Part shown: positions 5,759-38,129 of the stretch, one piece after another
How the letters are laid out: each line of letters begins with the position of its first letter
Position numbering within the stretch: position 1 is the first letter of the stretch
Assembly (NCBI GenBank): GCA_017302105.1
Contig: JAFLCS010000002.1
Span: 189,001-253,000, forward strand
Reading direction: 5' to 3'
Origin: Caulobacterales bacterium
GTDB taxonomy: Bacteria > Pseudomonadota > Alphaproteobacteria > Caulobacterales > Caulobacteraceae
Length of the DNA stretch: 64,000 nucleotides
Made by a program: the position numbers and the translations under genes
Notes under the pieces: generated by a model
Seen by the model: the letters and a program-made list of their open reading frames with translations, nothing else
Database searches by the model: none
Told to the model about the DNA's origin: nothing

Positions 5759-5761
5759 CCC

Positions 5762-11536: not shown

Positions 11537-12208
11537 ATGCGTATTCTGATCGTCGAGGATGACCAGGAGGCCGCCGATGCGATGAGCCGCGGGCTGGCGG
11601 AGGCCGGGCACGACTGTGAGGCGGCCCCCGACGGGGCTTATGGCCTGGACGCTGCGCATAAGGGTGGCTTCGACGTCTATGTGGTCGATCGCATGATGCC
11701 GCGTCTCGACGGGGTCGGCATGGTCGAGACGCTGCGCCGTGAGGGCGATCAGACGCCGGTGCTGTTCCTGTCGGCGCTCGGCGAGGTCGAAGACCGGGTG
11801 GCCGGTCTGAAGGCCGGTGCCGACGACTATCTGGTCAAGCCCTATGCCTTTTCCGAGCTGATCGCGCGGATCGAGGCCCTGGCCCGGCGACGCGAGACGG
11901 GTTCGGTCCAGACTGTGCTCAAGGTCGGCGATCTGGAGATGAATCTCATCAGCCGCCAGGTCAGCCGTGCTGGCCGCGACATCGACCTGCAGCCGCGCGA
12001 GTTCCAGCTCTTGGAATTCCTGATGCGCAATGCCGGCAAGTCAGTGACGCGCACCATGCTGTTGGAGAAGGTCTGGGAGTATCACTTCGACCCCCAGACC
12101 AATGTGATCGACGTCCATATCAGCCGGCTAAGGTCTAAGCTCGACAAGGGTTTCGACCGGCAAATGTTGCAGACGGTTCGTGGGGCTGGATACCGTCTGG
12201 AGGCGTGA
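11537..12208 (+). CDS. OmpR-family response regulator
   Basis: A 223-residue regulator. The receiver starts MRILIVEDD with Asp51 (VVDRMMP) and Lys in LVKPYAF. The winged-helix domain ends TVRGAGYRLEA. The LQPREFQLLEFLMRNAGKSVTR stretch (about 155-176) places it in the CzcR/TctD-like OmpR class often paired with proteases and envelope stress. The start at ATG 11537 is supported by GGGGAGGGAC directly upstream. It sits 25 bp after the Deg protease and 4 bp before its partner kinase, so one operon is likely. The regulator may control the protease, but no operator was identified. Confidence 0.88.
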   Translation: MRILIVEDDQEAADAMSRGLAEAGHDCEAAPDGAYGLDAAHKGGFDVYVVDRMMPRLDGVGMVETLRREGDQTPVLFLSALGEVEDRVAGLKAGADDYLVKPYAFSELIARIEALARRRETGSVQTVLKVGDLEMNLISRQVSRAGRDIDLQPREFQLLEFLMRNAGKSVTRTMLLEKVWEYHFDPQTNVIDVHISRLRSKLDKGFDRQMLQTVRGAGYRLEA

Positions 12209-12212
12209 TCGC

Positions 12213-18150: not shown

Positions 18151-18629
18151 CCGATCGGGGTCTCAAAATCGCCCTGGGTGTTTCCGTAGCGCTGAACATC
18201 TTCGTGGTCGGGGCCGTCGCAGGGGTGCTGGTCGCAGGCCTCCGCGGTCTGGATCACCGCACGCACCGCGAGCGCCCGCCGGTCATCCAGATGATCCAGT
18301 CTCTGGATGAGACGGATCGGGCGGCAGCCGAGCAAACCCTGCAGGGGGCTGGCCTTGCTGCGCGCGAAGATTTCGATGCGGCGCGGACCCATCGCTCCGA
18401 AGCCATAAATTTGGCTGGTGCCCAGACTTTTGATCGAGCGGCGGTCGAGGCCGCTCTGGCCCAATCCCGCGCTGCCGAGTTGCGGGGCCGGGACCGTCTG
18501 GAAGGCTCCCTGCTCGATGTCATGCAAGACCTCGACCAGGCCGACCGCCAGCGTCTGGCTCCGGGCCTGGCCCGGCGCAGTCGAGATGGCCGTCGGGATC
18601 GTCGTGGCCCGCCGCGCCGCGAGCGCTAG
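18147..18629 (+). CDS. Periplasmic heavy-metal sensor-like membrane protein
   Basis: A 160-residue protein with one N-terminal membrane segment (ALGVSVALNIFVVGAVAGVL, about residues 9-28) and a helical periplasmic domain of the CnrR/CpxP/Spy type (heavy-metal resistance family). The stretch VIQMIQSLDETDRAAAEQTL resembles the start of that fold. The C-terminus is very Arg-rich (RRSRDGRRDRRGPPRRER). In Cupriavidus CnrR-like proteins sense metal and act with an anti-sigma factor on an ECF sigma factor; the same three-gene logic fits here. Histidines are few, so nickel or cobalt sensing is not established. It ends 4 bp into the convergent PleC-like gene. Confidence 0.65.
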   Translation: MTDRGLKIALGVSVALNIFVVGAVAGVLVAGLRGLDHRTHRERPPVIQMIQSLDETDRAAAEQTLQGAGLAAREDFDAARTHRSEAINLAGAQTFDRAAVEAALAQSRAAELRGRDRLEGSLLDVMQDLDQADRQRLAPGLARRSRDGRRDRRGPPRRER

Positions 18630-21100
18630 GCGGCTTCGGCGCGGGATTTGGCCTGACTCACCGGCAGGATGACTGTGACCGTCGTGCCCTCGCCGGGGGT
18701 GCTCTCCATCTCAAAGCGGCCCTGATGCATCTCGATCAGAGATTTGGTCAGAGCCAGTCCAAGTCCGGTGCCCTGGGTAGCGCGGGCGTGCTTGGTCTCG
18801 ACCTGTTCGAAGGGCTGGGCCAGGCGTGGCAGATCTTCGGCCGAAATGCCGATGCCGTTGTCCGAGACGCTCAGGAAGGCCCAGCCAGACTCGATTCCGG
18901 CCTTGACGATGACGCGCCCACCCCGCGGCGTGAACTTGATGGCATTGGACAGCAGATTGAGCAGGACCTGCTTCAAGGCGCGGAAGTCGGCCTGAATCTG
19001 GTTGTCGGGACCGGCCTCGGTCAAGAGCTTGATGTCCGCTTCCGCAGCCCGCCCGCGCATCAGACGCACGCCGTCTTCGCACAGCTCCGCCAGGTCGACC
19101 GGTTCAAAGTGCATCTGCATCTTGCCGGCCTCGATCTTGGCCATGTCGAGCACATCGTTGATCAGCGCCAGCAGGTGCTGGCCCGAATTGAGGATGTCCT
19201 GACAGTATTCCCTGTAGCGCGCGTCACCCAGCGGGCCGAACATCTCGCCGGCCATGATTTCGGAAAAACCGTTGATCGCGTTCAGGGGCGTACGAAGTTC
19301 GTGGCTCATATTGGCCAGAAACTCAGACTTGGCCTGGTTGGCCGCCTCGGCACGGATCTTGGCGACCTCGTACTTGCGGGCCAGTTCAGACAGTTCGACC
19401 TGATTGACTTCTAGCTGTTCGACCAACTGCTTCAGCTCCGCCTCGCTACGGGCGCGCATGGCCTCCTGGCGCTTGATTGCGGTGATGTCCGCCGCCGTCA
19501 TCACGGAGCCCCCGTCTGCGGTCCGTCGTTCGCTGATCTGAAGCCAGCGTCCATCATGCAGTTCAAACTCGCGCACACCGGCACGACCATCCTGGGCCGG
19601 CCCCTGTGTCTTGATCGCCAGTGATCCGATCTGCATCAAGTCGTCTTTGCGTGCACCGGTCTTGAGCGCCTGTTCCTTGATGCCGAAGGTGTCGGCAAAG
19701 GCGTAGTTGCACAGGATCAGTCGCTCTTGCCGGTCGAACAGGACGAAGGCATCCGAGACGCTGTCGATCGCGTCGCGCAGGCGGCCTTCGGCCGCCATGG
19801 CGCGGGCCTTGGAGCGACGCTCATCGGTGACGTCGATGCCGACGCCTACCAGCTTGTCATAGCCATGGGCCTGGCGCGGGCTCGAGGCCTGGCCGCGCAC
19901 CTCGATCCATCTTGAACGTCCGCCGCTGTGGGCAATCCGGAAGGTCGCTTCGAACTGGCCGTAGGCGGCCGCTTGCCGGAGGGCATGGAGCAGGTGCTGC
20001 TGATGCTCTTGGTTTAGGAGACCGAGAACGTCGTCGCCGGAGGCGCTCGATCCCTGGGTCCAGCCTAGCATCGCGGCCATCTGGTCCGAGAGCTCGACCC
20101 GATCCCGATCCAGATCCCATTGCCAGACGCCGCATCGTGCCGCCTCCACAGCCATCATGAAGCGATGTTCTGAATCGACCTGGATCCGACGCGCGCGATA
20201 GCTCTGGAACAGCAGCAGTCCCGTCAGGCCGATGCCCAAGGCCAGGGGGCCGAGCAGAATCCAGCCCTGGGCGATCAGTTGCCGGACGGAAAAGGTGCCG
20301 GCCATACCGGACCGGCCGGCAACCAGGAGCAGATTGGTGTCGTCGACCGGAGCGACGGCGACGCCGAGAGATTCCCCATCCTGCTGCGGGGCGACTGTTG
20401 CGCCGCTTGAGGCCGTTTCGCGCAGGGTGTCGATCGTCTCGCCGAAGGTCGCACTGACCTCGGTACCGGCCAGATCGTCCGTGCCCGACAGGATGGTGCC
20501 GTCGGTCGCGACCAGAGCTACCGTCGCACCGTTGCCGAAGACCAGAAGGTCATCGACCTCGATGAGGGCGGCCATCGCCCGGTTCTCATTCGTGCGCTGA
20601 ACCAGGACGACGCGGTTGTCGCTGGCACCTTGCCAGGTCGCGGCGGCGTCACTCGGAATCTGAATCTCGCCGAAGGGGATGGTGCCCTCCCTGTGCGTGA
20701 CCGCCAAGATGTCCCTGCCGGAATCCAGGATGGCGACAGCAACCGCGTCATCGCCGGCCAGGCGCTGCCCCAGTTCTGCGGCATCCAGGGGTGCGCGCGG
20801 ATTGGCCGCCAGCCGTTCGCCGCCTGCGGCGAGGGCGGATTCGGTCCGGCTGAACCGGGCCTCAAGTCGGGACGCCGCAACCTCGGCATCATGGCGAAGC
20901 TGCAAGGCCGCCTCGGCGGACGCATCGTGGGGCCGATCCCGGATTTCGCGGGCATAGATGGCCGAATAGGCGACCAGGACGATGGCCGCGACGAGCAAGC
21001 CCATCCGCAGCCAGCCGGGCATGACGACGGCCCCGTCGCGACGGTTGTCATCGCCGGTCCGGCGCCCAGGTTGATTTCCCCTGCGGTCGGGACGCTCCAC
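18626..21100 (-). CDS. pleC: PAS-domain sensor histidine kinase, PleC/DivJ family (probably PleC)
   Basis: An 824-residue membrane kinase. TM1 is near residues 29-48. A periplasmic domain of about 220 residues follows (ALVEVDDLLVF region), then TM2 near 275-297. Two PAS domains lie at about 320-430 and 440-555, followed by a coiled coil. The H-box LANMSHELRTPLNAINGFSE has His600. The following MAGEMFGPLG and LDMAKIEAGKM segments are those of Caulobacter PleC and DivJ. PleC is the polar kinase/phosphatase of DivK and PleD. The architecture fits PleC best; a paralogous kinase is possible. The GTG start at 21100 has GGGAG six bases upstream. Confidence 0.7.
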   Translation of the reverse strand: MERPDRRGNQPGRRTGDDNRRDGAVVMPGWLRMGLLVAAIVLVAYSAIYAREIRDRPHDASAEAALQLRHDAEVAASRLEARFSRTESALAAGGERLAANPRAPLDAAELGQRLAGDDAVAVAILDSGRDILAVTHREGTIPFGEIQIPSDAAATWQGASDNRVVLVQRTNENRAMAALIEVDDLLVFGNGATVALVATDGTILSGTDDLAGTEVSATFGETIDTLRETASSGATVAPQQDGESLGVAVAPVDDTNLLLVAGRSGMAGTFSVRQLIAQGWILLGPLALGIGLTGLLLFQSYRARRIQVDSEHRFMMAVEAARCGVWQWDLDRDRVELSDQMAAMLGWTQGSSASGDDVLGLLNQEHQQHLLHALRQAAAYGQFEATFRIAHSGGRSRWIEVRGQASSPRQAHGYDKLVGVGIDVTDERRSKARAMAAEGRLRDAIDSVSDAFVLFDRQERLILCNYAFADTFGIKEQALKTGARKDDLMQIGSLAIKTQGPAQDGRAGVREFELHDGRWLQISERRTADGGSVMTAADITAIKRQEAMRARSEAELKQLVEQLEVNQVELSELARKYEVAKIRAEAANQAKSEFLANMSHELRTPLNAINGFSEIMAGEMFGPLGDARYREYCQDILNSGQHLLALINDVLDMAKIEAGKMQMHFEPVDLAELCEDGVRLMRGRAAEADIKLLTEAGPDNQIQADFRALKQVLLNLLSNAIKFTPRGGRVIVKAGIESGWAFLSVSDNGIGISAEDLPRLAQPFEQVETKHARATQGTGLGLALTKSLIEMHQGRFEMESTPGEGTTVTVILPVSQAKSRAEAA

Positions 21101-21180
21101 GCGTCACTCCCATTGATTCGCCCACGAAGAGGAATCCTAACCACCATCAAGGATTCGCGCGAGGCCCTCTGCAGGCGTTG

Positions 21181-24264: not shown

Positions 24265-24594
24265 TCAGAACTTCCTGCGACCGCTCACCGTCTCGAAGAA
24301 CATCCGCCAGTCGCCCATCAGACTCCACAGCGGATATTTGAAGGTGGCGGGGCGGTTCTTCTCGAAGACGAAATGGCCGAACCAGGCGAAGCCGTAGCCG
24401 ACCAACGGCATCGCCAGCAGCCACCAGGCGTTACGGGTGGCGACCGCCGCGGCCAGCAACACCAGCACCAGGGCCGAGCCGACGATATGGATGCGCCGGC
24501 ACGTCTGGTTGGAATGCTCGTGAATGTAGAAGGGATAGAACTCTGAAAAGCTCTGGAACCGATCCCCTGAAGCGGGTGTGGGCGCGTGGGTCAT
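24265..24594 (-). CDS. DUF962 / Mpo1-like membrane protein
   Basis: A 109-residue two- to three-pass membrane protein of the DUF962 family, whose yeast member Mpo1 is an Fe(II)-dependent dioxygenase acting on 2-hydroxy fatty acids. The conserved histidines are visible: FYIHEHSNQTCRRIHIVGS (about residues 22-40, His at HEH and RRIH) and FAWFGHFVFEKNRPATFKYP (about 68-87). All parts of the family signature are intact. The 203 bases between it and the DUF4126 gene hold no convincing ORF. It is divergent from the restriction-modification gene. Confidence 0.85.
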   Translation of the reverse strand: MTHAPTPASGDRFQSFSEFYPFYIHEHSNQTCRRIHIVGSALVLVLLAAAVATRNAWWLLAMPLVGYGFAWFGHFVFEKNRPATFKYPLWSLMGDWRMFFETVSGRRKF

Positions 24595-24776
24595 GCCATC
24601 AGGTTCGCGCGGTTAACGCCGGTTGTCGAGAGGCGGTGACCGTGGCCGCATTCCCGGAGCTGGGTGTCCATTTCAAAGGCAAGGGCGGACGTCGTTCCCG
24701 ACCCCACGCAACCGGACGGGGAAAAAGCGTTGCGCGGGGCGGGGGGAGTGGGCCAAGTGGGGCGGGGAGGCCGTGC

Positions 24777-27700
24777 GTGGACGTCGAACAGTTCATTAAT
24801 CGCTGGAAGGATGCGCGCGGCGGGGCCGAGCGCGCCAACTATCAGATCTTTCTGGGCGAGCTGTGCGAGGCGCTGGGTCTGCCGCGCCCGGATCCGGCCA
24901 GCCATCAGACGGCGGAAAACGACTATGTGTTCGAGCGCGGGGTCAAACGGCGCGACAGCGAGGAGCTGTCCTCGACGCTGCGGATCGACCTCTACAAGCG
25001 CGGCTGCTTTATCCTTGAGGCCAAACAGTCCCGTGCCGCCGACCGGCCCGACCAGCCGCGCCTGTTTACCGAGCAGGAGGCGACCTCGACCGCCGCCGCC
25101 GAGGGTAAGTGGGACGTCATGATGCGCCACGCCCGGCGTCAGGCCGAGGGCTATGTGTTTCGCCTGCCCGCCGACCATCCGGCCCCTCCGTTCATCCTGG
25201 TGTGCGACGTCGGCTATGTGTTCGAGGTCTATGCCGATTTCTCCGGCTCGGGGCGGGCCTATTCGCCGTTCCCGGACCGCAAGGGGTTTCGCATCCGGCT
25301 GGAGGACCTGCGTGATCCGGCCATCCAGGACCGCCTGCGGTCTATCTGGAGCGACCCGCAGAGCCTCGACCCGTCGAAGAAGGCCGCCGTTGTCACGCGC
25401 CAGATCGCCGAGCGGCTGGCGGCTGTGTCCAAACGTCTGGAGCGGACCCATCCACCCGAGGAGGTGGCGCATTTCCTGATGCGCTGCATCTTCACCATGT
25501 TCGCTGAGGACGTGGACCTGTTGCCGCGCGGCAAGTTCACGGGGTTGCTGACCGATTGCCTGGACGGGCCGGAGAGCTTCGCGCCGCTACTGGAAGACCT
25601 CTGGCGCAAGATGGACAAGAAGGATCACGCGGATCGCTTCTTCTCCTATTTCAAGACCCATCTGCGCTGGTTCAACGGCGGGCTGTTCCATGACCCCCGT
25701 GCCTTCCCGATGACCAAGGAGGAGATCGGGGAGCTGCTGGCGGCGTCCAAGCACGATTGGCGCTATGTCGAACCGGCCATTTTCGGCACCCTGGTTGAAC
25801 AGGCGCTGGACCCGGACGAGCGGCGCAAGCTGGGGGCGCACTATACGCCGCGCTCCTATGTCGAGCGGTTGGTCGAGGTGACGGTGATGGAGCCGCTGCG
25901 GTCCGACTGGGCCGATGTGCAGTTGCGCGTCACCGACGCCAAGGAACGCGGCGAACCCAAGGAGGCTGTGGCGGCGGTTCGCGCCTTTCACAAGCAGCTG
26001 TGCGCCACCCGTGTGCTGGACCCGGCCTGCGGCACCGGCAACTTCCTGTATGTGTCGCTGGAGCTGATGAAGAAGCTGGAAGGTGAGGTGCTGGAAGCCC
26101 TGGCGGAGCTGGGGGAGAGCGAAACCATCGGCCTGGAGGAGGTCGATCCGCATCAGTTCCTGGGCATCGAGCTGAATGTGCGTGCCGCCGCCATCGCCGA
26201 GCTGGTGCTGTGGATCGGCTATCTACAGCAGCATTACCGCAACCGCTCCGAACACCCGGCGGAGCCGATCCTGAAGGCGTTTGACAATATCCAGAACAAG
26301 GACGCGGTGCTGACCTGGGACGGTTCTCCCGAGCTGCAGTTCGAGATGACGGACGGGGTCGCGGTGCAGGTATTCCCGAACGCTCGCCGACCCGACTGGC
26401 CCGAGGCCGAGTTCATCGTGGGGAACCCGCCGTTCATTGGGGGCAAGGATATCCGCTCACGCATGATGCCGGGATACGCTGAGGCGCTGTGGCGGGCGCA
26501 TTCGCACATGAACGAAAGTGCCGATTTCGTCATGTACTGGTGGGACCGGGCCGCCGAGTTGCTGACGCGCAAGAAGACGCCACTGCGCCGCTTCGGCCTC
26601 GTCACCACCAATTCGATCAGCCAGGTGTTCCAGCGCCGGGTCATGGAGCGCCATCTGAACGCCAAGGCCCCGATCAGCCTGATCTTCGCCATCCCCGACC
26701 ATCCCTGGACCAAGGCCACAAAGGACAGCGCGGCGGTGCGCATCGCCATGACGGCGGCGCAGACCGGGGCGCGCGAGGGCGAGCTGTTGGAGGTGGTGTC
26801 CGAGGCCGGGCTGGAAACCGACGATCCCGCCATCGGATTTGTGCGGCGCCGGGGCAAGATCAACTCGGACCTGACGGTCGGGGTGGATGTGGCGCGAGCC
26901 GGAGCATTGGCGGCCAGCAAGGGGTTAGCCTCGCGAGGTGTGCAACTGATGGGTTCGGGCTTCATCGTCACCCCACAGGAAGCGGAGGCGCTGGGTTTGG
27001 GCCGTCGTCCCGGTCTGGAGCGCCATATCCGCGACTATCGCAACGGCCGCGACCTGACCGCCCATTCGCGCGGGGTGATGGTCATCGACCTGTTCGGCCT
27101 GACGGCGGAAACTGTGCGGCGGGATTATCCGGAGGTCTATCAGCACCTGCTGGCCACGGTGAAACCGGATCGCGACAGCAACAACCGTGCCTCATACCGT
27201 GAGAACTGGTGGATATTCGGGGAGCCGCGGCGAGAGCTTCGCCCCGCGCTCGAAGGCCTTAGCCGCTACATCGCGACGGTCGAGACGACCAAACACCGGG
27301 TGTTTCAGTTCCTCGACGACAGCATCCTGCCGGACAATATGCTGGTCGCGATCGCCAGCGACGACGGCTGGCATCTGTCGGTGGTCAGCAGTCGAACGCA
27401 TATTGTGTGGACGCTAAATGTCGGCGGTGTGCTTGAGGACAGGCCCCGCTACACAAAAAGTGGTTGCTTCGACCCCTTCCCCTTCCCGGATCCCGATGAG
27501 GCCACCCGCGATCGCCTGCGGGATCTCGGCGAGGAGTTGGACGCGACACGCAAACAGGTTCAGGCCGAGCATCCCGACCTGACCCTGACGGGCCTGTACA
27601 ATGTGCTGGAAAAGCTGAGGGCCGGCGAGGCGCTGTCGGACAAGGACGAGGACGTGAAGGATCGCGGGCGGGTGCTGATCCTCAAGGATCTGCACGAGCA

Positions 27701-28148
27701 GATCGACCGCGCCGCCGCCGACGCCTATGGCTGGCCGCACGACCTCAGCGACGAGCAGGTCCTGGAGCGGCTGGTCGCCCTGAACGCCGAGCGGGCGGCC
27801 GAGGAAGCCGCCGGCCATGTGCGCTGGCTGCGGCCCGACTATCAGATTCCCCGCTTCGCCAAGGGCGCGGCGGCCCAGACCGACAAGCTGGACCTGGACG
27901 AGACCGAGGTGGCCCAAGACACGGCCCTGCCGACCTTTCCCAAGGACAAGGGCGAACAGGTCATGGCGATCCGCGCGGTGCTGTTGGCCTCGGCGCGGCC
28001 CCTGGACGCCGCCGCCATCGCGCGCGCCTTCAAGGGCGGAGGCAAGCGGATCGAACAGCGCGTGCATCAGGCCCTGACCACCCTGGTCCGCTATGGCGAG
28101 ATCACGCCGCTGCCCAACGGCCAGTTCGTGACGCGGCAGGCGGCGTGA
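24777..28148 (+). CDS. Single-chain MmeI-type (type IIL) restriction-modification enzyme
   Basis: A 1123-residue protein with the MmeI layout. The N-terminal nuclease region has Asp71-X9-Glu81-x-Lys83 (RIDLYKRGCFILEAKQS), the same spacing as the D-X9-ExK motif of MmeI. A helical linker follows. The adenine-methyltransferase domain has DPACGTGNFL (around residues 415-424) and NPPF (550-553). The target-recognition domain spans about 690-930. A C-terminal tail of about 150 residues ends in a winged-helix-like segment (AIRAVLLASARPLDAAAIAR). One protein would both methylate and cut. GTG 24777 is chosen for GGGGAGG 5-6 bases upstream, although the frame is open from 24576. The Nramp gene follows at 4 bp. 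Nuclease activity is inferred. Confidence 0.85.
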   Translation: MDVEQFINRWKDARGGAERANYQIFLGELCEALGLPRPDPASHQTAENDYVFERGVKRRDSEELSSTLRIDLYKRGCFILEAKQSRAADRPDQPRLFTEQEATSTAAAEGKWDVMMRHARRQAEGYVFRLPADHPAPPFILVCDVGYVFEVYADFSGSGRAYSPFPDRKGFRIRLEDLRDPAIQDRLRSIWSDPQSLDPSKKAAVVTRQIAERLAAVSKRLERTHPPEEVAHFLMRCIFTMFAEDVDLLPRGKFTGLLTDCLDGPESFAPLLEDLWRKMDKKDHADRFFSYFKTHLRWFNGGLFHDPRAFPMTKEEIGELLAASKHDWRYVEPAIFGTLVEQALDPDERRKLGAHYTPRSYVERLVEVTVMEPLRSDWADVQLRVTDAKERGEPKEAVAAVRAFHKQLCATRVLDPACGTGNFLYVSLELMKKLEGEVLEALAELGESETIGLEEVDPHQFLGIELNVRAAAIAELVLWIGYLQQHYRNRSEHPAEPILKAFDNIQNKDAVLTWDGSPELQFEMTDGVAVQVFPNARRPDWPEAEFIVGNPPFIGGKDIRSRMMPGYAEALWRAHSHMNESADFVMYWWDRAAELLTRKKTPLRRFGLVTTNSISQVFQRRVMERHLNAKAPISLIFAIPDHPWTKATKDSAAVRIAMTAAQTGAREGELLEVVSEAGLETDDPAIGFVRRRGKINSDLTVGVDVARAGALAASKGLASRGVQLMGSGFIVTPQEAEALGLGRRPGLERHIRDYRNGRDLTAHSRGVMVIDLFGLTAETVRRDYPEVYQHLLATVKPDRDSNNRASYRENWWIFGEPRRELRPALEGLSRYIATVETTKHRVFQFLDDSILPDNMLVAIASDDGWHLSVVSSRTHIVWTLNVGGVLEDRPRYTKSGCFDPFPFPDPDEATRDRLRDLGEELDATRKQVQAEHPDLTLTGLYNVLEKLRAGEALSDKDEDVKDRGRVLILKDLHEQIDRAAADAYGWPHDLSDEQVLERLVALNAERAAEEAAGHVRWLRPDYQIPRFAKGAAAQTDKLDLDETEVAQDTALPTFPKDKGEQVMAIRAVLLASARPLDAAAIARAFKGGGKRIEQRVHQALTTLVRYGEITPLPNGQFVTRQAA

Positions 28149-29481: not shown

Positions 29482-29874
29482 ATGGCTGCGCGTGACGCCC
29501 CCTATGTTCTGGTCGCCGAGGAGAACCTGCTGCTGCAGGAGATCTTCGAGCGCGTGCTGGGTGATGCCGGCTTTGAGGTGGCCAGCGTCGGTGACGGTGA
29601 GGCCCTGATCGCGGCGATGAAGGCGCGACCGCCGGTGCTGGTGCTGTTGGAATTGATCCTGCCGCGCATGGACGGGTTCGAATGCCTGCGTCGGATCCGC
29701 GCCGAACCGGCTCTGAAGATGACGCCCGTGGTGGTCATCACGGCCCTGACCCGCGACGACCATTTCGAGGCGCTTCAACCGCTGGGCGTCCTGGCCTATG
29801 TGACCAAGCCGTTCAGTCCGTCGGCGCTGGTGCGCCAACTGGGTGAACTGGGAATTCGTGGAGCCCCGACATGA
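29482..29874 (+). CDS. Atypical stand-alone receiver protein (phospho-acceptor Asp replaced by Glu)
   Basis: A 130-residue CheY-like receiver without an output domain. The acidic pair is Glu13-Glu14 (VLVAEENLLL) instead of Asp-Asp. The residue aligned with CheY Asp57 is Glu57 (LLELILPRMDG). Thr/Ser (VVITALT) and Lys (YVTKPFSP) positions are conserved. Glu at the phospho-site often mimics phosphorylation, so it may be locked on, or act as a structural partner. The stop overlaps the ATG of the barrel gene, tying it to the polysaccharide operon, where it could regulate the synthase or the HEAT protein. It starts the operon 63 bp after the Nramp gene. Confidence 0.85.
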   Translation: MAARDAPYVLVAEENLLLQEIFERVLGDAGFEVASVGDGEALIAAMKARPPVLVLLELILPRMDGFECLRRIRAEPALKMTPVVVITALTRDDHFEALQPLGVLAYVTKPFSPSALVRQLGELGIRGAPT

Positions 29875-30938
29875 TGGGACTGGAAGTCGTCGCCGTGGCC
29901 CAGGCTGTGGCCGGTCCGACGGAACTGCTGGAACAGGGACGCCAGGCGCGCCGCGCCGGCAACGCCGAGGGCGCGATCCCGCCGCTGGAAGCGGCTGCAC
30001 GACTGTCGCCGACCGACGCTGATATCCTGCTGGAACTGGGTCTGGCCTATTATGCGACCGAGCGACTCGCCGACGCCGAGCGGGTGCTGGCCCGGGCGCA
30101 GGGCCTGGCCCCTGACTATCGCGACGTGACCCTGGCGCGGGCTCGGGTCGCCCTGGCGCAGGGGCGCACGACGGAGGCCCGCCGCCTGGCCGGGTCACTG
30201 GCGGCCCAGGGCGATGACGAGGCCCGCCTCCTGATCGCCCAGGCCGAGGCGAACCCACAGGCACAGATCGAGCGACTGGATTTGTGGACGACCCGTAGCA
30301 CCGTTGAAAACCAGGACGACTGGACCGGGTTCGGCGTCGGTATTGGCGGTCGATTTGCGCCCGCGTGGTCGGGCTGGGCCAATGTGGAGCACACCCGGCG
30401 CTTCGGCCGGACCGATGTCTATGGCGAGGTGGGGATCGAGCACGGCATGGGCGACCTGTCCGTGTTTGCCTCGGTCGGGGGAGCTCCGGACGCCGACTAC
30501 CGGGCCGAGCTGTCAATGGCCACCGGCGCGCGTTACGAGCTGAACACGGCGGGCCTGGCGGCGGTAGGGGACGTGCGTTTTTCGCGCTATCCGGTGGGCG
30601 AGATCTGGACGGTGCGACCGGGCCTGCTGTGGGAGGCGGCACGCTGGGGCGGCGAGGCTCGCTGGATCCGTCTGCGCGACGAGACCGGTACCGACCGCAA
30701 CGGCTGGATGGTGAGCGGCCAGGTCGCGCTCGTAGGAGTGACGACCTGGATGGATGTGTCTGCCAGCGATGCGCCCGAAACTTCGGACGGCTTCACCGTT
30801 GATGTCCGGGCCTGGGGTGTCGGCGTGCGCCAGCACCTGAGCCAGACCCTGAATCTGCGTCTCGCCTATGTCCACGAAGACCGGGGGCCGTTTGGCAATC
30901 GTGACGAGGTGGCCCTGTCTCTGACACGACGGTTCTAG
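29871..30938 (+). CDS. TPR plus YaiO-type outer-membrane beta-barrel protein
   Basis: A 355-residue protein. Residues 15-125 hold about three TPR-like helical pairs (EQGRQARRAGNAEGAIPPLEA...LLELGLAYYATERLADAERVL). Residues 140-355 show alternating aromatic beta-strands ending in Phe (EVALSLTRRF), the C-terminal outer-membrane signature, as in YaiO. The TPR plus barrel layout is that of exopolysaccharide exporters such as PgaA and BcsC, though the barrel is small. The N-terminus MMGLEVVAVAQAVAGP is only weakly hydrophobic and has no basic n-region, so the Sec signal is unclear; the true start may lie elsewhere. The ATG overlaps the receiver stop, and the HEAT gene starts 1 bp after. Confidence 0.78.
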   Translation: MMGLEVVAVAQAVAGPTELLEQGRQARRAGNAEGAIPPLEAAARLSPTDADILLELGLAYYATERLADAERVLARAQGLAPDYRDVTLARARVALAQGRTTEARRLAGSLAAQGDDEARLLIAQAEANPQAQIERLDLWTTRSTVENQDDWTGFGVGIGGRFAPAWSGWANVEHTRRFGRTDVYGEVGIEHGMGDLSVFASVGGAPDADYRAELSMATGARYELNTAGLAAVGDVRFSRYPVGEIWTVRPGLLWEAARWGGEARWIRLRDETGTDRNGWMVSGQVALVGVTTWMDVSASDAPETSDGFTVDVRAWGVGVRQHLSQTLNLRLAYVHEDRGPFGNRDEVALSLTRRF

Positions 30939-30939
30939 G

Positions 30940-31989
30940 ATGACGGTCCTGTGGCTGATCTGGTGGCTGGCGGCGCTCCTGGCGACGCTGGCGGTCGGCT
31001 GGATGCTGACCCTGATCGGCCTGCGTGAAGTCCATGAGACGCGCCGGGCCGAACGTCTGACCTTGCAACGCAAGACCCGCCGACAGTTGCTGGACGTGGC
31101 GCTGGGTCCAAGCGAGACGTTGATCTGGGACCGCCGCGATGTGAACTCCCTGGCCGTGCTGGCCGCCTATCTGGCGGAGCTGGCCGAACTGATAAAGGGC
31201 CCGGAGATGGAGCGCCTGAGTGGCGTTCTGCGGGCCAGTGGACTGTATCGTCGGCTCCTGCGTCTGGCGCGCCGCGGCGACCCTGACGGGCGTCTGGTCT
31301 TCATCGAGGCGATGGCGGCGATGCCGGGGCGTGAGACGGTGCGCATCCTCAACACGATTGCCAATGAACCGCTGCCCCAGGTCAGCCTGGCGGCCTATCG
31401 CACCCTCTGGCTAATGGGCCATGAGGTCACCATCGAGGATGTTCAGCGCGACGCTGAGACGCGCGACGGGGCGACGCTGGATCGGCTGGAACTGACCGGC
31501 CAGATCGGTGAGGCCCACCCGCAGCGCGCCTTGCCCTGGATCTTGAACGAAGCGGCCAATGAAGCGGTTCGGGTCCGGTTGATTGACTCGGTTGCCGATG
31601 CGGACTGGCCGCCAGGTGACGAAGCTCTCCACCAGTTGGCGGCCGACAGCGCCTCACCCAATGTGCGTGCGGCTGCCCTGCGCGCCCTGGCCCAGGTGCG
31701 ACGACCGGGTCTGGGGCGTGTGCTGTCCGAAGGCGTCGCGAGCGAGGACTGGCAGGTTCGCGCCGAGGCGGCACGGGCAATCGGTGCGTGCGAACGTCGG
31801 GATCTGGCCGAGCCTCTCGGCCTTCTGCTGGGGGATGAAAACTGGGCCGTGCGCTTCAATGCCGGCTCGGCCCTCAGCAAGCTGGGCCCGGCCGGACAGG
31901 CGATCATCGCTGAGGTTGCGGCGCGGGGTCATCCGCGCGCCCGGCGCACCGCTGAACTGTTGATCCAGACCCAGGGCCTAGCGGCATGA
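30940..31989 (+). CDS. Membrane-anchored HEAT-repeat protein
   Basis: A 349-residue protein with an N-terminal membrane segment (LWLIWWLAALLATLAVGWML, about residues 4-23) and a long cytoplasmic region. HEAT/PBS-lyase-type repeats of about 30 residues are evident (SPNVRAAALRALAQVRRPGLG, SEDWQVRAEAARAIGACERRDL, DENWAVRFNAGSALSKLGP). These repeats usually mediate protein contacts. Its position between the barrel and the glycosyltransferase suggests a scaffold that holds the synthase or receives the atypical receiver. The GT2 ATG overlaps its stop by 4 bp. Confidence 0.82.
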   Translation: MTVLWLIWWLAALLATLAVGWMLTLIGLREVHETRRAERLTLQRKTRRQLLDVALGPSETLIWDRRDVNSLAVLAAYLAELAELIKGPEMERLSGVLRASGLYRRLLRLARRGDPDGRLVFIEAMAAMPGRETVRILNTIANEPLPQVSLAAYRTLWLMGHEVTIEDVQRDAETRDGATLDRLELTGQIGEAHPQRALPWILNEAANEAVRVRLIDSVADADWPPGDEALHQLAADSASPNVRAAALRALAQVRRPGLGRVLSEGVASEDWQVRAEAARAIGACERRDLAEPLGLLLGDENWAVRFNAGSALSKLGPAGQAIIAEVAARGHPRARRTAELLIQTQGLAA

Positions 31990-33395
31990 CCTGGAGCCTG
32001 GGTGCCATCTTCTTCGCGCAGGTTGCGGCGGGCGTCATCATCTTCCTGGGGGTGCTGCAGCAGCTGGTTCACATGGTGCAGCTGGCCATCGCCGGTGTCA
32101 CCCTGATGCGCGAGCGCGCCACGCCGTCCGAGCAGATGTGGCGTCGCTATGCCGAGGCCGCGCCGCCGATCGCCATCCTGGCCCCGGCCCACAATGAGGC
32201 CGCCGGCATTGAGCAGAGCGTGCGATCATTGCTGGCCCTTCAGTATCCCGTCTTCGAGGTCATCGTCATCAATGACGGGTCCAAGGACGCGACGCTCCAG
32301 ACCCTGATCGACGCGTTCGAACTGAAGCGGACCGACCGGATCTATGACGAGATCTGTCCGCACCAGCCGATCATCGCCATCTATGAATCGCCGCATCAGG
32401 CGCGGCTGACGGTGATCGACAAGATCAACGGCGGCAAGGCTGATGCTCTGAACGCCGGCATCAACCTGAGTCGGGCGCCCATCCTGTGCTCGATCGACGC
32501 CGACAGCATTCTGGAGTCCGACGCCCTGATGCGTGTCAGCCAGCCCTTCGTGGAGAATCCCGAAGGCACCCTGGCGGCTGGGGGCACGATCCGCATCGTC
32601 AATGGATGTCGGGTTCAGCATGGTCGAGTCGTCGAGGTCGGCGCTCCACGCAACATCCTGGCCCTGCTGCAGACGGTCGAATATCTGCGTGCCTTCCTGA
32701 TGGCCCGCCTGGCCTGGAGCCGGCTGAGAGCCCTGCTTATCATCTCGGGAGCCTTTGGGCTGTTCCAGCGCAAGGCCGTGGTGGAGGTCGGCGGCTATTC
32801 GCTCGGCACCGTCGGCGAGGATATGGAGCTGGTCGTCAAGCTGCATCGCCGGGCCCTTGAAGAGGGTCGGGACTACACCGTCGCCTTTGTGCCCGAACCG
32901 GTCTGCTGGACCGAGGCCCCGGAAAGGCTGGACGTGCTGGGCCGTCAGAGGTCGCGCTGGCATCGCGGAGCGCTGGAGGTCTATGCCAAGCATCGCGATA
33001 TGCTGGGTGATCCGCGCTACGGTCGGGTCGGCTGGATGGGAATGGGAAATGTCCTGGTCAGCGATGTGCTCGGGCCGGTCGCGGACCTGCTGGGTTGGAT
33101 CCTGGTGCCGCTGTTATGGATGCTGGGTCTGTTGTCCTTCGACTATTTCATGGCGTTCTTCGCGGTGACGGTCACTCTGGGTGTTGTGGTGTCGGTCGGG
33201 GCGCTGGCGCTTGAAGAGATGGAGCTGAGGCGCTTTCCGCGTACGCGAGACCTTCTGAAGCTGGCCGGTGCGGCCGTTCTGGAGAACCTCGGCTATCGCC
33301 AGCTGGTCAGCGTGTGGCGACTGCGCGGGATGTGGCAGTGGCACCGCAAGTCTCACGTGTGGGGTGAGATGACCCGCACGGGCTTCCGGAACTAG
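31986..33395 (+). CDS. Processive family-2 glycosyltransferase (polysaccharide synthase)
   Basis: A 469-residue membrane enzyme resembling PgaC, BcsA and HasA synthases. TM1 lies near residues 8-35. The GT-A domain shows VINDGSKDAT, the metal-binding Asp171-x-Asp173 (SIDADS), the catalytic Asp279 (GEDMEL) and the processivity motif Gln321-x-x-Arg-Trp325 (QRSRW). Three to four C-terminal membrane helices follow (LLGWILVPLLWMLGLLSFDYF and later). It polymerises nucleotide sugars and extrudes the chain across the inner membrane. No PilZ or c-di-GMP domain is present. The sugar cannot be read from sequence; the neighbouring deacetylase suggests an N-acetylated hexosamine. Confidence 0.87.
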   Translation: MTWSLGAIFFAQVAAGVIIFLGVLQQLVHMVQLAIAGVTLMRERATPSEQMWRRYAEAAPPIAILAPAHNEAAGIEQSVRSLLALQYPVFEVIVINDGSKDATLQTLIDAFELKRTDRIYDEICPHQPIIAIYESPHQARLTVIDKINGGKADALNAGINLSRAPILCSIDADSILESDALMRVSQPFVENPEGTLAAGGTIRIVNGCRVQHGRVVEVGAPRNILALLQTVEYLRAFLMARLAWSRLRALLIISGAFGLFQRKAVVEVGGYSLGTVGEDMELVVKLHRRALEEGRDYTVAFVPEPVCWTEAPERLDVLGRQRSRWHRGALEVYAKHRDMLGDPRYGRVGWMGMGNVLVSDVLGPVADLLGWILVPLLWMLGLLSFDYFMAFFAVTVTLGVVVSVGALALEEMELRRFPRTRDLLKLAGAAVLENLGYRQLVSVWRLRGMWQWHRKSHVWGEMTRTGFRN

Positions 33396-33433
33396 GCCGC
33401 TCGGGTCGCCTCGCCGCCGTTTCGAGATCTCGA

Positions 33434-33448
33434 TTAACAGCCTCTTAG
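33434..33448 (+). promoter_or_regulatory. CtrA-like binding site upstream of the deacetylase
   Basis: TTAA at 33434-33437 and TTAG at 33445-33448 are spaced by seven bases, one mismatch from the CtrA consensus TTAA-N7-TTAA. It lies 70 bases before the deacetylase ATG, inside the 122-base gap after the glycosyltransferase. This would place deacetylation under cell-cycle control separate from the synthase operon. The match is short and could be chance. Confidence 0.35.
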
Positions 33449-33517
33449 GTTGCGTCGGTCATCGCTGGATCGAAGGTGCGATCGTGCGCCTTCGCACCTG
33501 CGGACTGGGCAGAACCG

Positions 33518-35338
33518 ATGTCGCCACGCCTTTCGAGATACCGGCTGCCGGCATTGGGTATCTTGGTCGTTATACTGGCTGTTGTTGGTGGCTGGTGGAT
33601 CTGGAACCGCATCTCTGACGGTCGCACCCTGCCGGCCAGCGAGATGGTCCGCTACGAAGGCCTGCGCGGCCCTCCGGACGTCACCCGTGTCGCCGCGCCC
33701 CAAGCGACCCCCCTATCGCAATTCGACGTCGGAGCGGCCAACCGGCTGGCGATCCTGGTAACCGATCCCGAGTCCGGGTGGTTGGGTCTGGTTCGAGGGT
33801 TCCGGGCGCTGGGCGTTCCCATCACCGTCACCGAGGACGTGAGCCGGGCGATGCAGCATAGGGTGGTGCTGGTCTATCCGATCATCTCAGGTTCGGTTCT
33901 GGACGGGCCGGAGCTGCGGGGCCTGGCGCAGCACGCGCGCAACGGCGGTACCGTCGTGGCCTTCCAGCTGGCCGGCGGGGGACTGGATGAGCTGTTCGGG
34001 GTCGCTCCCGGCGCAACGACGACGGCGCGAACCCGACTGAACTGGGTCGCGCAGACCGGTCGACCGGCCGCCGATCAGGTGGTGGTGTCGGGGCATGGGG
34101 AGACCCAGGTGGCTTCAACCGGCTATTCGGCCCGGAACGCCCGGATCGAGGCGACCTTTGAGGACGGATCAGTCGCGGCTGCGTGCCGGGCGGTCGGGCC
34201 GGGACGGACCTGTGTGCTAGGGGTCGATCTGGGGGCGCTGGCCCAGCGGTCCAAGAACGGACGGGCCGAGTCGATGTCGCGCGGCTACACAAACGCCTAT
34301 GATCCGTCGGTCGACACCTATTTCCGCTGGCTGAGAGACATCTACGTCCAGGGCGAACCGATGCCGTGGTTGATCGACACGGTGCCAGGCAACCGGGATG
34401 TCTCGATCATCTTCACACACGACGTCGACTTCGGGCCATCGATCACCAACAGCCGGGCCTATGCCGACACCTTGGCACAGGCAGGGGTCCAGGGCACCTT
34501 CTTCATCCAGACGAAGTATATGCGCGACTGGAATGATGAACCCTTCTTCGACCAGGCAGCCGCCGGTACCATCTCGGAGCTGGTCGACATGGGCATGGAC
34601 GTCGGCAGCCACACCGTGGCCCATACGCGCGAGCTGGAGCATCTCCAGATGGGGACCGGTCGCGAGCGGTATCCGCGTTACCGTCCGATCGTGACGGACG
34701 ACTTTCACGTTGAAGGCGCGACCATCCTGGGCGAGCTTCGCGTCTCGAAGTGGCTGCTGGAGGAGTTGACAGGGGCCGAGGTGGTGAGCTTCCGACCCGG
34801 TCGATTGTCCTACCCGTTTTCGTTGCCGGAGGCCTTGCAGGCGACCGGCTATCGGCATTCGTCCTCGATCAGTGCCAACCTGACCATGAGCCATCTGCCG
34901 TTCCAGCTCACCAGCGGTCGCGCAGACGGGACGCTGGTGCCGGTCTTCGAATATCCGGTGACGATCGAAGATGAGCTGGACCCTCCGATGGGCGCACGCC
35001 TGGACGACGGATTGGCGCTGATCGACCGGATCGCTCAGGACCGCGGCGTTGTGGTGATCCTGACCCACCCCGACATCACCGATCACAAGCTGTCCTACAC
35101 GCGCGGCGTGCTGGAGCGTTGGCGGGAGCGTGCCTGGATGGGGTCGCTCGCAGAATTTGGGGCGTGGTGGAGCGCCCGCGATGCCCTTGAAGCCGACCTG
35201 GTCCAACGGGACGGGCGCTGGGAATTGACGGCCCGGTCGGCCCAAGGTGTTCAGGGCCTGACCATCATCCTGCCGCGACAGAACCGCCGGTTCACGCTGG
35301 CTTTGGCGCCGGGGCAGGATCGTCAGGTCGCCCTCTAG
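33518..35338 (+). CDS. Membrane-anchored polysaccharide deacetylase (NodB-fold)
   Basis: A 606-residue protein with an N-terminal anchor (LGILVVILAVVGGWWIW, about residues 13-29). A region of roughly 50-250 has Rossmann-like strands (RLAILVTDPESGWLGLV, GGTVVAFQLAGGG) and may be a GATase-like lid. The C-terminal NodB domain has FTHDVDFG (His301, Asp302, Asp304), SHTVAH (His365, His369), FRPGRLSYP and LTHPDITDH. These are the metal-binding and catalytic motifs of carbohydrate esterase family 4. The enzyme would remove acetyl groups from the nascent polymer in the periplasm, as PgaB does. ATG 33518 is chosen over an upstream in-frame start at 33476 because the anchor follows. Substrate is inferred. 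Confidence 0.8.
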   Translation: MSPRLSRYRLPALGILVVILAVVGGWWIWNRISDGRTLPASEMVRYEGLRGPPDVTRVAAPQATPLSQFDVGAANRLAILVTDPESGWLGLVRGFRALGVPITVTEDVSRAMQHRVVLVYPIISGSVLDGPELRGLAQHARNGGTVVAFQLAGGGLDELFGVAPGATTTARTRLNWVAQTGRPAADQVVVSGHGETQVASTGYSARNARIEATFEDGSVAAACRAVGPGRTCVLGVDLGALAQRSKNGRAESMSRGYTNAYDPSVDTYFRWLRDIYVQGEPMPWLIDTVPGNRDVSIIFTHDVDFGPSITNSRAYADTLAQAGVQGTFFIQTKYMRDWNDEPFFDQAAAGTISELVDMGMDVGSHTVAHTRELEHLQMGTGRERYPRYRPIVTDDFHVEGATILGELRVSKWLLEELTGAEVVSFRPGRLSYPFSLPEALQATGYRHSSSISANLTMSHLPFQLTSGRADGTLVPVFEYPVTIEDELDPPMGARLDDGLALIDRIAQDRGVVVILTHPDITDHKLSYTRGVLERWRERAWMGSLAEFGAWWSARDALEADLVQRDGRWELTARSAQGVQGLTIILPRQNRRFTLALAPGQDRQVAL

Positions 35339-38004
35339 GGCGTCAGCGACGCTCTGAGGTCCGTAGCCTCCCGGCGGGGGGTGTGCTCGGGAGGGGTCCC
35401 GAGGGCGTCCAGAACCTGATCGACCTCAGCAAGGCGGGAGAGGGCGGCCGCGATGTCACCCTGCCGCGCCGCGAGTTTCGCCTCGACCAGCCATATCAAC
35501 GACCAATGGGGATGATCCGCGGCCCACTTTGTCTCGAGAATCTCGCGAGCTGTCTGAAGGTGCATCCCGGCCGGGCCGTCCTGGCCCAGGGCGATCAGGG
35601 CTTCAGCCAGGCCCCTGTGGATCTGGGCGGCTTCGATGGACCTACCGCTTCCCTGAAGATCGATCTCGGTGAGAAGCTCTTCACCCATCCGGCGAGCTTC
35701 CTCGAACCGTCCGTGCCCGCGCAACGCCGTCGCGAAACCGCGTCTGGCCGAGATCGTCCAGGGATGGCTCGCGCCGAGGCGGGCTTCCAGCCCCTGCAGG
35801 ACGGATGGCCAGATCGCGATCGCAGCCTCGTATTCCTCCCGCTCGGTGAGGAGCGATACCTGGAACGTCCTGGCGTTCCACACACGCGGGTGATCGGGAT
35901 CGAAGGCCGCCTCCAGTGTCGCTGAGGCGGTGTCGATCAGGTCCGAAGCCTCATCGTATCGGCCGAGGTCAATCATCATACTGGCGACCCCGAGCTGGGT
36001 TGTGGCTGTGCGATAATCTGTGAGGCCGAGCGCCCGGACATAGATGCCCAAGGCCTGGTCGAGGAGCTCGCCGGCTTGCGCGAAACGGCCCTGGTAGAGG
36101 CAGGTCATTGCCAGATTGCTGAGAACCACGGCGACGGCAGGGTGGTCGTCACCGTGGACACGGCGCTCGCCCTCGAGCGATTGCCGGTAAAGGGCCTCCG
36201 CCTCGCCGAACTGGTCCTGGTCGATCAGGGTGCCCGCCAGATTGCCGAGCGTGGCCAAGGTCTGAGGTGAATCGGGCGGCAGATGCTCCTGGAACACCGC
36301 CAACCCCTGTCGGTACAGGGCCTCAGCCTCGGGAAGCCGGCCCAGATCGGCGGCTGCGACGGCCTGCCAGGTCAAGATGGAGGCAAACGACAGATCCATG
36401 CCCGGCTGCCCCTCTGCCAGGACGCGCAGGCGGTCGGCGACTGCTTCGACCGTGCGGGATCGGGCTGCGTCCTGGAACCGTTGCAGACGATCCAGGGTCC
36501 ACTGGATCACTCGCGGCGACCCCAAGGCGATATAATGGGCCAGTGCCGTCTTGAGATGCTGTTCGTCGTCGGAGCTTACCGGGGCCGTGTCCGGCGACAG
36601 GCGATGCCGGGCATCCTCATGAAAGCTCCAGTGGATCAGTTTAAACCGGTCCCAATGGTCCTCACGCTCGGAGGCCTGCAAGGTGGCCCGCGTCAACCGG
36701 TGCAGGCTCGGCGGACCGTCTGCGGAATGCTCGACGAAGGCCCGTGCCAGAAACCGCTTCCAGCCCTCCGTGTCCGGTTCCTTGAGGAAATCTCGCGACA
36801 ACACCGCCAGGCTCTCGGGATCCAGCGTCTCGGGATAGCTCGCCAGTCGCAGTCTGCGTTCCGTCTCGGGGTCAAGGTGGGCCAGGAAGCGGGCCAGGAT
36901 TTCGGCGCGCCCACCGCCGAATTGGTTGGGTGAGGGTGTGACTCCGCGGGCAACGATGGCGTCGTGCGTCTCGCGCTCAAGGTCCAGATAATAGGGCAGG
37001 GCACCTTCACCGGGTTCGCCGGCGGCGGCGGCGATCATGCGATCACGGATGGCCGCGTCGGAAATACCGGCGCGGGTCAGGAATTCAGTGGCGTCCGCGT
37101 GGGACAGCCCGCCCAGCAGATGCTGTTCCAGTACCTCATCCCACGCTGCGTCAATTTCGCCCCACCGCAGCTTGTCCCGGCCAGTGATTATGACCACCGC
37201 GCCGGGTGTGTCCTGGACCAGACGACGCAACCAGTCGTCGGCCAGCAGCGCTCCGGGTCCGTCCTTCAGGCCGCGATCACGCCAAAGCGCCTCGTGGGTA
37301 TCGAAACGGATGACGACTCGCGGGCCGCGATCCGCCGCCATGGCCTCGCACAGATCATAGCCGAGGTATTTGGGTAGGGCACCGGCCAATTGGTCGATTG
37401 ACAACTCGTCGATACCCACGAGCAGCGCGCGTCCGCGCCGGTCCCACCAGGTTTGCATGGCCTCAGCGCCGCGCGCCGCCAGCTTGGCTCCATATTTGGT
37501 CAGGAAGGCGTAACCGGGGATGACGTTCGCGACATCCTCTGCCAGGCCGAGAACGTCGCTCAGCACCTCCGAGCCCGCGCGGAACAGCTCCGGGTGCGTT
37601 GCTCGGATGTCCTTGCCCGGCTGGTCCAGGCTGAAATAGCGGGCGAAGGCCAGATCAAAGGCCGGAAAGGTCAGGCCACCATGTTCAGCCAGTTGCAGCC
37701 GCAACGACAGCAGGGCCTGGGCCGGATTGCGGTTGGCTGGATTCTCCAGATCGACGAGCCCGGAGGCGAGGCGCCGGCCCCGCGCATTGACCCATTGGCC
37801 GCGGGCGCGCTCGAGCATCCGCCCGAACTCGGCCTGAAGCGCTGACTTGCCCTGGCCACCGACACCGTACCAGGTGACGACGCGGTACACGTCCAGGGCT
37901 TGCACGTCATCAAGGGCGCGGCCGAAGCGTGCGCGATGGTCCTCGCGGTCCGTGAAGAGCTCCGAGGCCGACCTTTGCGGCAATGCGTGCGATGGCTTGA
38001 GCAT
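35335..38004 (-). CDS. STAND/NLR-like ATPase with C-terminal TPR array
   Basis: An 889-residue protein. A P-loop at residues 47-56 (GVGGQGKSAL, Lys53) has the GxxGxGKS form. FDTHEALW (Asp235) reads as Walker B, and VIITGRDKLRW reads as the sensor segment typical of large bacterial STAND ATPases. FPAFDLAFARYF near residue 113 is a further family motif. After about residue 480, nine or so TPR-like repeats of 42 residues follow (LPEAEALYRQGLAVFQEHLP, FGEAEALYRQSLEGERRVHG). This NB-ARC/NACHT plus TPR layout recalls MalT and antiphage NLR proteins, but only 46 residues precede the P-loop, so no effector domain is visible. ATG 38004 has GGGGAAGG upstream; GTG 38034 is the alternative. Confidence 0.75.
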   Translation of the reverse strand: MLKPSHALPQRSASELFTDREDHRARFGRALDDVQALDVYRVVTWYGVGGQGKSALQAEFGRMLERARGQWVNARGRRLASGLVDLENPANRNPAQALLSLRLQLAEHGGLTFPAFDLAFARYFSLDQPGKDIRATHPELFRAGSEVLSDVLGLAEDVANVIPGYAFLTKYGAKLAARGAEAMQTWWDRRGRALLVGIDELSIDQLAGALPKYLGYDLCEAMAADRGPRVVIRFDTHEALWRDRGLKDGPGALLADDWLRRLVQDTPGAVVIITGRDKLRWGEIDAAWDEVLEQHLLGGLSHADATEFLTRAGISDAAIRDRMIAAAAGEPGEGALPYYLDLERETHDAIVARGVTPSPNQFGGGRAEILARFLAHLDPETERRLRLASYPETLDPESLAVLSRDFLKEPDTEGWKRFLARAFVEHSADGPPSLHRLTRATLQASEREDHWDRFKLIHWSFHEDARHRLSPDTAPVSSDDEQHLKTALAHYIALGSPRVIQWTLDRLQRFQDAARSRTVEAVADRLRVLAEGQPGMDLSFASILTWQAVAAADLGRLPEAEALYRQGLAVFQEHLPPDSPQTLATLGNLAGTLIDQDQFGEAEALYRQSLEGERRVHGDDHPAVAVVLSNLAMTCLYQGRFAQAGELLDQALGIYVRALGLTDYRTATTQLGVASMMIDLGRYDEASDLIDTASATLEAAFDPDHPRVWNARTFQVSLLTEREEYEAAIAIWPSVLQGLEARLGASHPWTISARRGFATALRGHGRFEEARRMGEELLTEIDLQGSGRSIEAAQIHRGLAEALIALGQDGPAGMHLQTAREILETKWAADHPHWSLIWLVEAKLAARQGDIAAALSRLAEVDQVLDALGTPPEHTPRREATDLRASLTP

Positions 38005-38129
38005 CCGCGCCTTCCCCTGTCCAATGCGATCCACACGATAGCTGGGATCATGACAGGCGAAAGGAAGGGCGGCGTCAGATTTCGTAAGAAAATCCGACTA
38101 CACAACGGGCGGTGGGCCCACCGGGCAAG

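Follow-up and report, generated by a model that had tools for sequence, protein, structure and literature searches.

Most descriptions of synthase-dependent exopolysaccharide systems have cyclic di-GMP (c-di-GMP) as the switch. The poly-N-acetylglucosamine (PNAG) system PgaABCD combines a TPR and outer membrane barrel protein, a family 2 glycosyltransferase (GT2) with a QxxRW motif, and a NodB-type deacetylase. Pel follows a similar logic, with a periplasmic deacetylase and a TPR/barrel protein, and has a PelF-type synthase and the PelD receptor. In Escherichia coli, the yaiS-yaiP-yaiX-yaiO stretch is annotated with a YaiO-family barrel in the vicinity of a GT2 and of a deacetylase. YdaJKLMN of the monoderm Bacillus subtilis has a GT2 with a c-di-GMP-linked partner and, to our knowledge, no HEAT protein. 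According to passages of PMC9384988, the TPR domain of PgaA binds both the polymer and the deacetylase PgaB, and the same passages support the TPR part of Pel; c-di-GMP-regulated Gram-positive versions of Pel are described in passages of PMC7112194. Here we analyze a locus at positions 29482-35338 of a 64,000-nucleotide stretch (the window) from a Caulobacterales genome of 2.57 Mb (G000, C4:189001-253000). It has all the parts of such a secretion route along with a HEAT-repeat protein and a receiver, and its conserved core, a HEAT-GT2 gene pair, is smaller and more widespread than the original prediction for this DNA held.

The locus consists of five intact, tightly packed open reading frames (ORFs) on the + strand. 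The first (29482..29874; 130 aa) encodes a single-domain receiver, based on a Pfam Response_reg match (1.5e-20) and an alignment of 58 operonic receivers. It overlaps by 4 bases a YaiO-family gene (29871..30938), whose product has a TPR scaffold (TPR_19, 4.6e-10) and an outer membrane beta-barrel (TIGR04390 OMP_YaiO_dom, 72.5 bits; cutoff, 32) ending in RRF, both domains scoring above their cutoffs. One base further on starts the HEAT gene (30940..31989; HEAT_2, 1.8e-18), which overlaps by 4 bases the gene for a GT2 resembling PgaC/IcaA (31986..33395; GT2 family matches). After a gap of 80 bases follows a membrane-anchored NodB/CE4-type deacetylase (33476..35338; Polysacc_deac_1, 1.7e-10). The ORF check and domain scans thus bore out the composition first proposed from the letters alone: a receiver, a TPR/outer membrane barrel, an inner membrane HEAT protein, a processive GT2, and an anchored NodB protein.

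The GT2 has the D, DxD, ED, and Q(Q/R)xRW motifs and transmembrane segments of a processive membrane synthase. NDGS, DxD (D171, D173), ED (E278, D279), and QRxRW (Q321-W325) are invariant in an alignment of 46 sequences, in which the relatives are 39-66% identical to the window protein, and hydropathy peaks at residues 5-23 and 391-409. The nearest curated model is that of PgaC/IcaA (TIGR03937; 137.4 bits, under the cutoff of 422.3), and E. coli PgaC is 29% identical to the window GT2 over 278 columns, Q-R-x-R-W included. Judging from these motifs and matches, the GT2 is probably a processive synthase, and its polymer is probably an N-acetylhexosamine.

We compared the remaining parts with the described systems. 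Where PgaABCD has PgaD, the window has the HEAT protein and the receiver; no PgaD family match was found at E ≤ 0.01 in the five window proteins. E. coli PgaB gave no significant blastp match to the window deacetylase, and the PgaA model scored only 15 bits against the window barrel, which belongs to the YaiO family. Membership in the Pga family was rejected on the PgaC score, below the equivalog cutoff, and on the missing PgaD and PgaB matches. YaiP is 25% identical to the window GT2 over 239 columns, in the glycosyltransferase core only, and E. coli YaiO gave no significant blastp match to the window YaiO. YaiS is annotated as a putative deacetylase, which we take to be of the PIG-L family, and neither a HEAT protein nor a receiver is annotated in the yai stretch. 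We rejected membership in the yaiO-yaiP cluster on this annotation together with the weak YaiP and absent YaiO similarity. The five proteins had no Pfam match to a PelF-type synthase or to PelD. A whole-word search found no mention of HEAT, YaiO, receiver, or response regulator in the main text of a survey of synthase-dependent operons (PMC7112194), and no description of a HEAT-GT2 or receiver-YaiO-HEAT-GT2 polysaccharide operon turned up in searches of open-license PubMed Central papers, within which the system remains as unfamiliar as was first claimed; PMC8461298 contained none of five terms looked for. Synthase-dependent exopolysaccharide is a known kind of system, and the HEAT partner and receiver input are undescribed as far as these searches reach.

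The HEAT protein has a single N-terminal transmembrane segment at residues 10-28, by hydropathy, with no Lys or Arg in the preceding flank and four in the following 15 residues. Because the positive residues come after the segment, the HEAT part is predicted to be cytoplasmic. AlphaFold2 modeled it as a confident alpha-solenoid (pLDDT 94.3), which matched alphaRep and PP2A scaffold structures in the PDB with modest TM-scores by query (0.3-0.55). The model suggests that the HEAT part is probably a protein-binding surface on the cytoplasmic face. Very long ORFs hinted at a HEAT-GT2 fusion; this was a reading-frame artifact in one locus (L123), where a six-frame search gave separate receiver, YaiO, HEAT, and GT2 genes.

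The HEAT-GT2 pair is found in Alphaproteobacteria, Neomarinimicrobiota, Clostridia, Bacilli, and others. Degenerate peptide patterns run against a genome collection covering 84,980 species picked out 369 stretches; 346 of these encode a relative at E ≤ 1e-3, and the best 80 were retained. With further loci chosen individually and four duplicate assemblies dropped, the mapped set, window included, comes to 91 loci: 54 alpha-type (among them L057, labeled Halieaceae and grouping with Hyphomonas), 10 Neomarinimicrobiota, 22 Firmicutes, and 5 others. All were picked by GT2 similarity, so neighbor frequencies are conditional on it. Where at least 0.9 kb of upstream sequence was present, a HEAT gene lies directly upstream of the GT2 in 47/49 alpha-type, 10/10 Neomarinimicrobiota, 22/22 Firmicutes, and 3/5 other loci. 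L057 has a HEAT gene (277 bits) that fails the gap rule, and L069, with an N-terminally short GT2 match, is a real miss; among the others, L092 and L104 have more widely spaced HEAT genes (248 and 260 bits).

Neighbors were counted in loci flanked by no less than 3 kb on the upstream side and 2.5 kb on the downstream side (adequately flanked; 44 alpha-type and 17 Firmicutes). The GGDEF and histidine kinase models of a first mapping caught plain receivers and were discarded, and single-pass searches supplied the counts. The 44 alpha-type loci have HEAT (42), YaiO (42), a receiver (38), a histidine kinase (23), NodB (9), the TIM-barrel-like family CLO300 (7), and GGDEF (5). Receiver, YaiO, and HEAT all stand beside the GT2 in 36 of them; the four-gene core thus escapes the outcome that the original prediction had named as fatal, an order confined to this genome. 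Beside GT2 relatives 39-66% identical to the window GT2, HEAT is only 11-32% identical, and since the same genes surround these relatives despite such low HEAT identity, in other orders and phyla, the recurring neighbors are more than chance. In Firmicutes, YaiO is found in 0/17 loci, as expected without an outer membrane. A survey of 101 relatives found HEAT (≥249 bits) in eight of nine genomes with the GT2 (≥439 bits) and in 0/92 others. One genome with a GT2, G069, has a diverged HEAT gene adjoining it (85 bits), and none of the 101 has a strong HEAT match without a GT2, the match in G068 being weak (54 bits). Across an evenly drawn sample of the class, at least 7 of 385 genomes have the synthase, with at most four candidates scored per genome.

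The deacetylase is not part of this core. Its ORF opens at GTG 33476, and translation more likely begins at ATG 33518, as the alignment with relatives starts near that codon. It has one N-terminal transmembrane segment (residues 24-42, by hydropathy) and the metal-site motifs DVD and HTVAH, of which D316, D318, H379, and H383 are invariant in five sequences and supply the Asp and two His residues of a CE4 metal site. A DxD replacing DD is known from HpPgdA. By motif, the protein is predicted to be a CE4-type de-N-acetylase. Searched both as a family and as a single sequence, it matched no solved structure, and the Pfam scan gave no glycoside-hydrolase family match. The operon has a NodB homologue nearby in 10/54 alpha-type and 0/37 other loci, in varying arrangements, and a NodB protein of the window kind was matched at E ≤ 1e-40 in none of the other 100 relatives, leaving the window genome alone of the 101. 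The five-gene order that had been put forward as conserved was seen in 2/91 loci only, the window and L124 (from another family; NodB 48% identical), and NodB is accessory. Neither NodB nor CLO300 is present in 33/44 alpha-type loci; a processing enzyme is added in several lineages, though none was found in most alpha-type loci.

The window receiver carries Glu in place of the phosphoacceptor Asp and at each of the two acidic-pocket positions (EEE), with T and K kept. It is alone in this among the 58 aligned receivers (53 once five duplicate-assembly rows are removed), 56 of which retain the phosphoacceptor Asp; the other exception, L113, has Asn. The description of the receiver as atypical therefore suits the window copy and does not extend to the family. 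Lacking the Asp of a phosphorylatable receiver, the window protein probably cannot be phosphorylated in the normal way, and the Glu may mimic the phosphorylated state; hence this copy is probably locked (constitutive). The genome also has a second receiver-HEAT-GT2 copy (L033; G000:C1, approximately 88.5-91.4 kb), with a GT2 54% identical to that of the window and a canonical receiver; no YaiO or NodB was found in its surroundings.

To compare divergence, 36 alpha-type loci were listed and the 34 with all four genes were used (L030 and L125 were dropped). Ranked by median tree distance, the window copy is 1st for the receiver, 1st for HEAT, 6th for YaiO, and 12th for GT2, and by terminal branch its receiver and HEAT again rank 1st. 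Relative to GT2, its receiver and HEAT have z scores of 3.7 and 3.4, and its YaiO 0.9. Across the 34 loci, GT2-scaled divergence correlates most strongly between HEAT and the receiver (rho 0.50; 0.43 without the window), compared with 0.28 for HEAT-YaiO and 0.19 for YaiO-receiver. This covariation fits a receiver working through HEAT, and a HEAT that adapted anew, or came under relaxed constraint, after the receiver had ceased to cycle; we take it as a pointer rather than a test.

We lean slightly toward reading the locus as a synthase-dependent system for a PNAG-like polysaccharide, with the state of the receiver reaching the synthase via the HEAT adaptor and the window switch probably locked. 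The GT2 would polymerize a PNAG-like chain, probably of N-acetylhexosamine, and extrude it across the inner membrane, and the anchored NodB protein would de-N-acetylate the chain in the periplasm. By analogy with PNAG, the TPR arm of YaiO would receive the polymer and the barrel would export it through the outer membrane. HEAT, the near-constant partner of the synthase, would hold it in a receiver-controlled state from the cytoplasmic face. In ordinary members, phosphorylation of the receiver would alter HEAT binding and through it synthase activity; the window copy would be fixed in one state, and the second copy, L033, would keep a working switch. The analysis itself shows the gene content, motifs, predicted topology, conserved neighbors, co-occurrence, receiver substitutions, and linked divergence; from these we infer the polymer class, the direction of regulation, and the physical contacts.

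Several observations weigh against this scheme. The export step is weakened by the lack of a clear Sec signal at the start of the window YaiO (29871-29930; borderline), as assessed by hydropathy and eye. The same weak start occurs in many Caulobacterales and Hyphomonas loci (L034, L036, L038, L039, L041-L046, L048, L054, L063, L067, L073, and L075), and inspection of 19 loci revealed no signal upstream in frame; clear signals are present in other lineages. Most YaiO proteins without a recognizable signal retain the barrel C terminus with its Phe, and the window protein keeps this residue. The AlphaFold model of NodB is poor (pLDDT 49.5). The window has three kinase-like matches (6421-7836, 12132-13610, and 18629-21103), and the nearest to the operon is 8 kb distant. 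The receiver is wanting in 6/44 and YaiO in 2/44 adequately flanked alpha-type loci, and in one of the eight genomes with both HEAT and GT2 (G086) the HEAT match runs across a stop codon. The lineages compared for divergence are related, which makes p values optimistic.

HEAT could instead be a structural, nonsignaling subunit of the synthase, as PgaD and BcsB are of theirs, with the receiver merely cotranscribed and acting elsewhere, on a diffusible partner or on transcription via a kinase pathway. We consider this unlikely. In its favor, 11 of the 17 adequately flanked Firmicutes loci have HEAT-GT2 with no receiver within search distance, which means that HEAT must have a role beyond reading a receiver, HEAT and GT2 co-occur almost perfectly in the 101 relatives, and unscaled Spearman correlations bind HEAT closest to GT2 (0.82), without singling out HEAT-receiver (0.78) from GT2-YaiO (0.78). 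The joint divergence of receiver and HEAT in the window, and their GT2-scaled covariation exceeding that of other pairs, speak against it. The fast divergence of the two could also reflect decay, with a nonfunctional receiver, HEAT under relaxed constraint, and an inactive system. Loss of all three acidic Asp residues of the receiver fits such decay, as does the position of receiver and HEAT as the most diverged of 34, and the terminal branches of GT2 and YaiO are long too (4th and 5th of 34). Nevertheless, the five ORFs are intact and tightly packed, the GT2 motifs and NodB metal residues are kept, the median divergence of GT2 is ordinary, and the Asp-to-Glu changes are conservative, which makes decay quite improbable.

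We give a similarly low probability to a family that is basically regulated by c-di-GMP, acting directly on GT2 or HEAT, with a receiver that either modulates a diguanylate cyclase or is left over from an Hpt/REC/GGDEF protein. Such proteins exist in the family: GGDEF adjoins HEAT-GT2, with a kinase nearby, in all 10 Neomarinimicrobiota loci, and Pfam found Hpt, two REC, and GGDEF domains in one protein of a Neomarinimicrobiota locus (L078) and two REC and a GGDEF in one of a Bacillus locus (L103; Hpt subthreshold). Since Neomarinimicrobiota and at least one Bacillus locus carry such a protein, c-di-GMP is not foreign to the family, and the window genome itself has five GGDEF domains. The earlier proposal of a receiver in place of a c-di-GMP input holds for the window operon, with no GGDEF match in the entire window, and does not extend to the Neomarinimicrobiota loci. 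On the other side, GGDEF is nearby in only 5/44 alpha-type and 2/17 Firmicutes loci. PilZ, the mark of c-di-GMP-regulated synthases of the Bcs/Alg type, has no match in the five proteins and none at E ≤ 0.001 in the window genome, where any c-di-GMP effectors would therefore be of other kinds; nor do the five proteins include anything PgaD-like. A bolder extension of the locked-switch reading is possible, if on balance doubtful: a cross-phylum class of synthases gated by a two-component receiver via a membrane HEAT adaptor, with c-di-GMP not needed and with the window copy phosphomimetic, always on, and its HEAT co-adapted. Many genes that now carry only the label "HEAT repeat protein" or "glycosyltransferase" could then be named with more help from function, and the idea is testable in environmental strains.

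Other genes recur beside the pair. A large extracytoplasmic protein adjoins HEAT-GT2 in 16/17 adequately flanked Firmicutes loci (among L079-L113). It looks like a glycosidase; Pfam gave a subthreshold GH113 match in one of three tested and nothing in two, and hhalign found no kinship between the NodB family and this partner in L112. CLO300 stands beside HEAT-GT2 in alphaproteobacteria (L049-L052, L055, L056, L064, L074, and L124) and in clostridia (L091, L094, L095, L097, and L102). The sole member scanned, from L055, had no Pfam match, and an [LY]D[IV]EPY motif is present in the four sequences compared by eye (L049, L055, L097, and L124). Weak members of CLO300 and CLO700 are uncertain, as both models came from iterative building on whole ORFs. 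Two loci may be losing the system: in L055, the GT2 is apparently split into two ORFs (5824-7392), and L069, with its short GT2, has no HEAT, receiver, or YaiO nearby.

Within the window, receiver matches occur only at 5759, 11276, and 29458. The histidine-kinase-like ORF at 18629-21103 (- strand) has no adjacent receiver match, which makes it a candidate partner of orphan receivers. A gene for an 899-aa TPR protein (35335-38034, - strand) ends tail to tail with NodB; its product has no PADLOC match and scores below the cutoff for the TPR family of the FxSxx-COOH system (124 bits; cutoff, 300). Two genes upstream of the operon, at 24576-28148 on the + strand, is a type IIG restriction enzyme-methyltransferase (PADLOC PDLC03627, 1577 bits).

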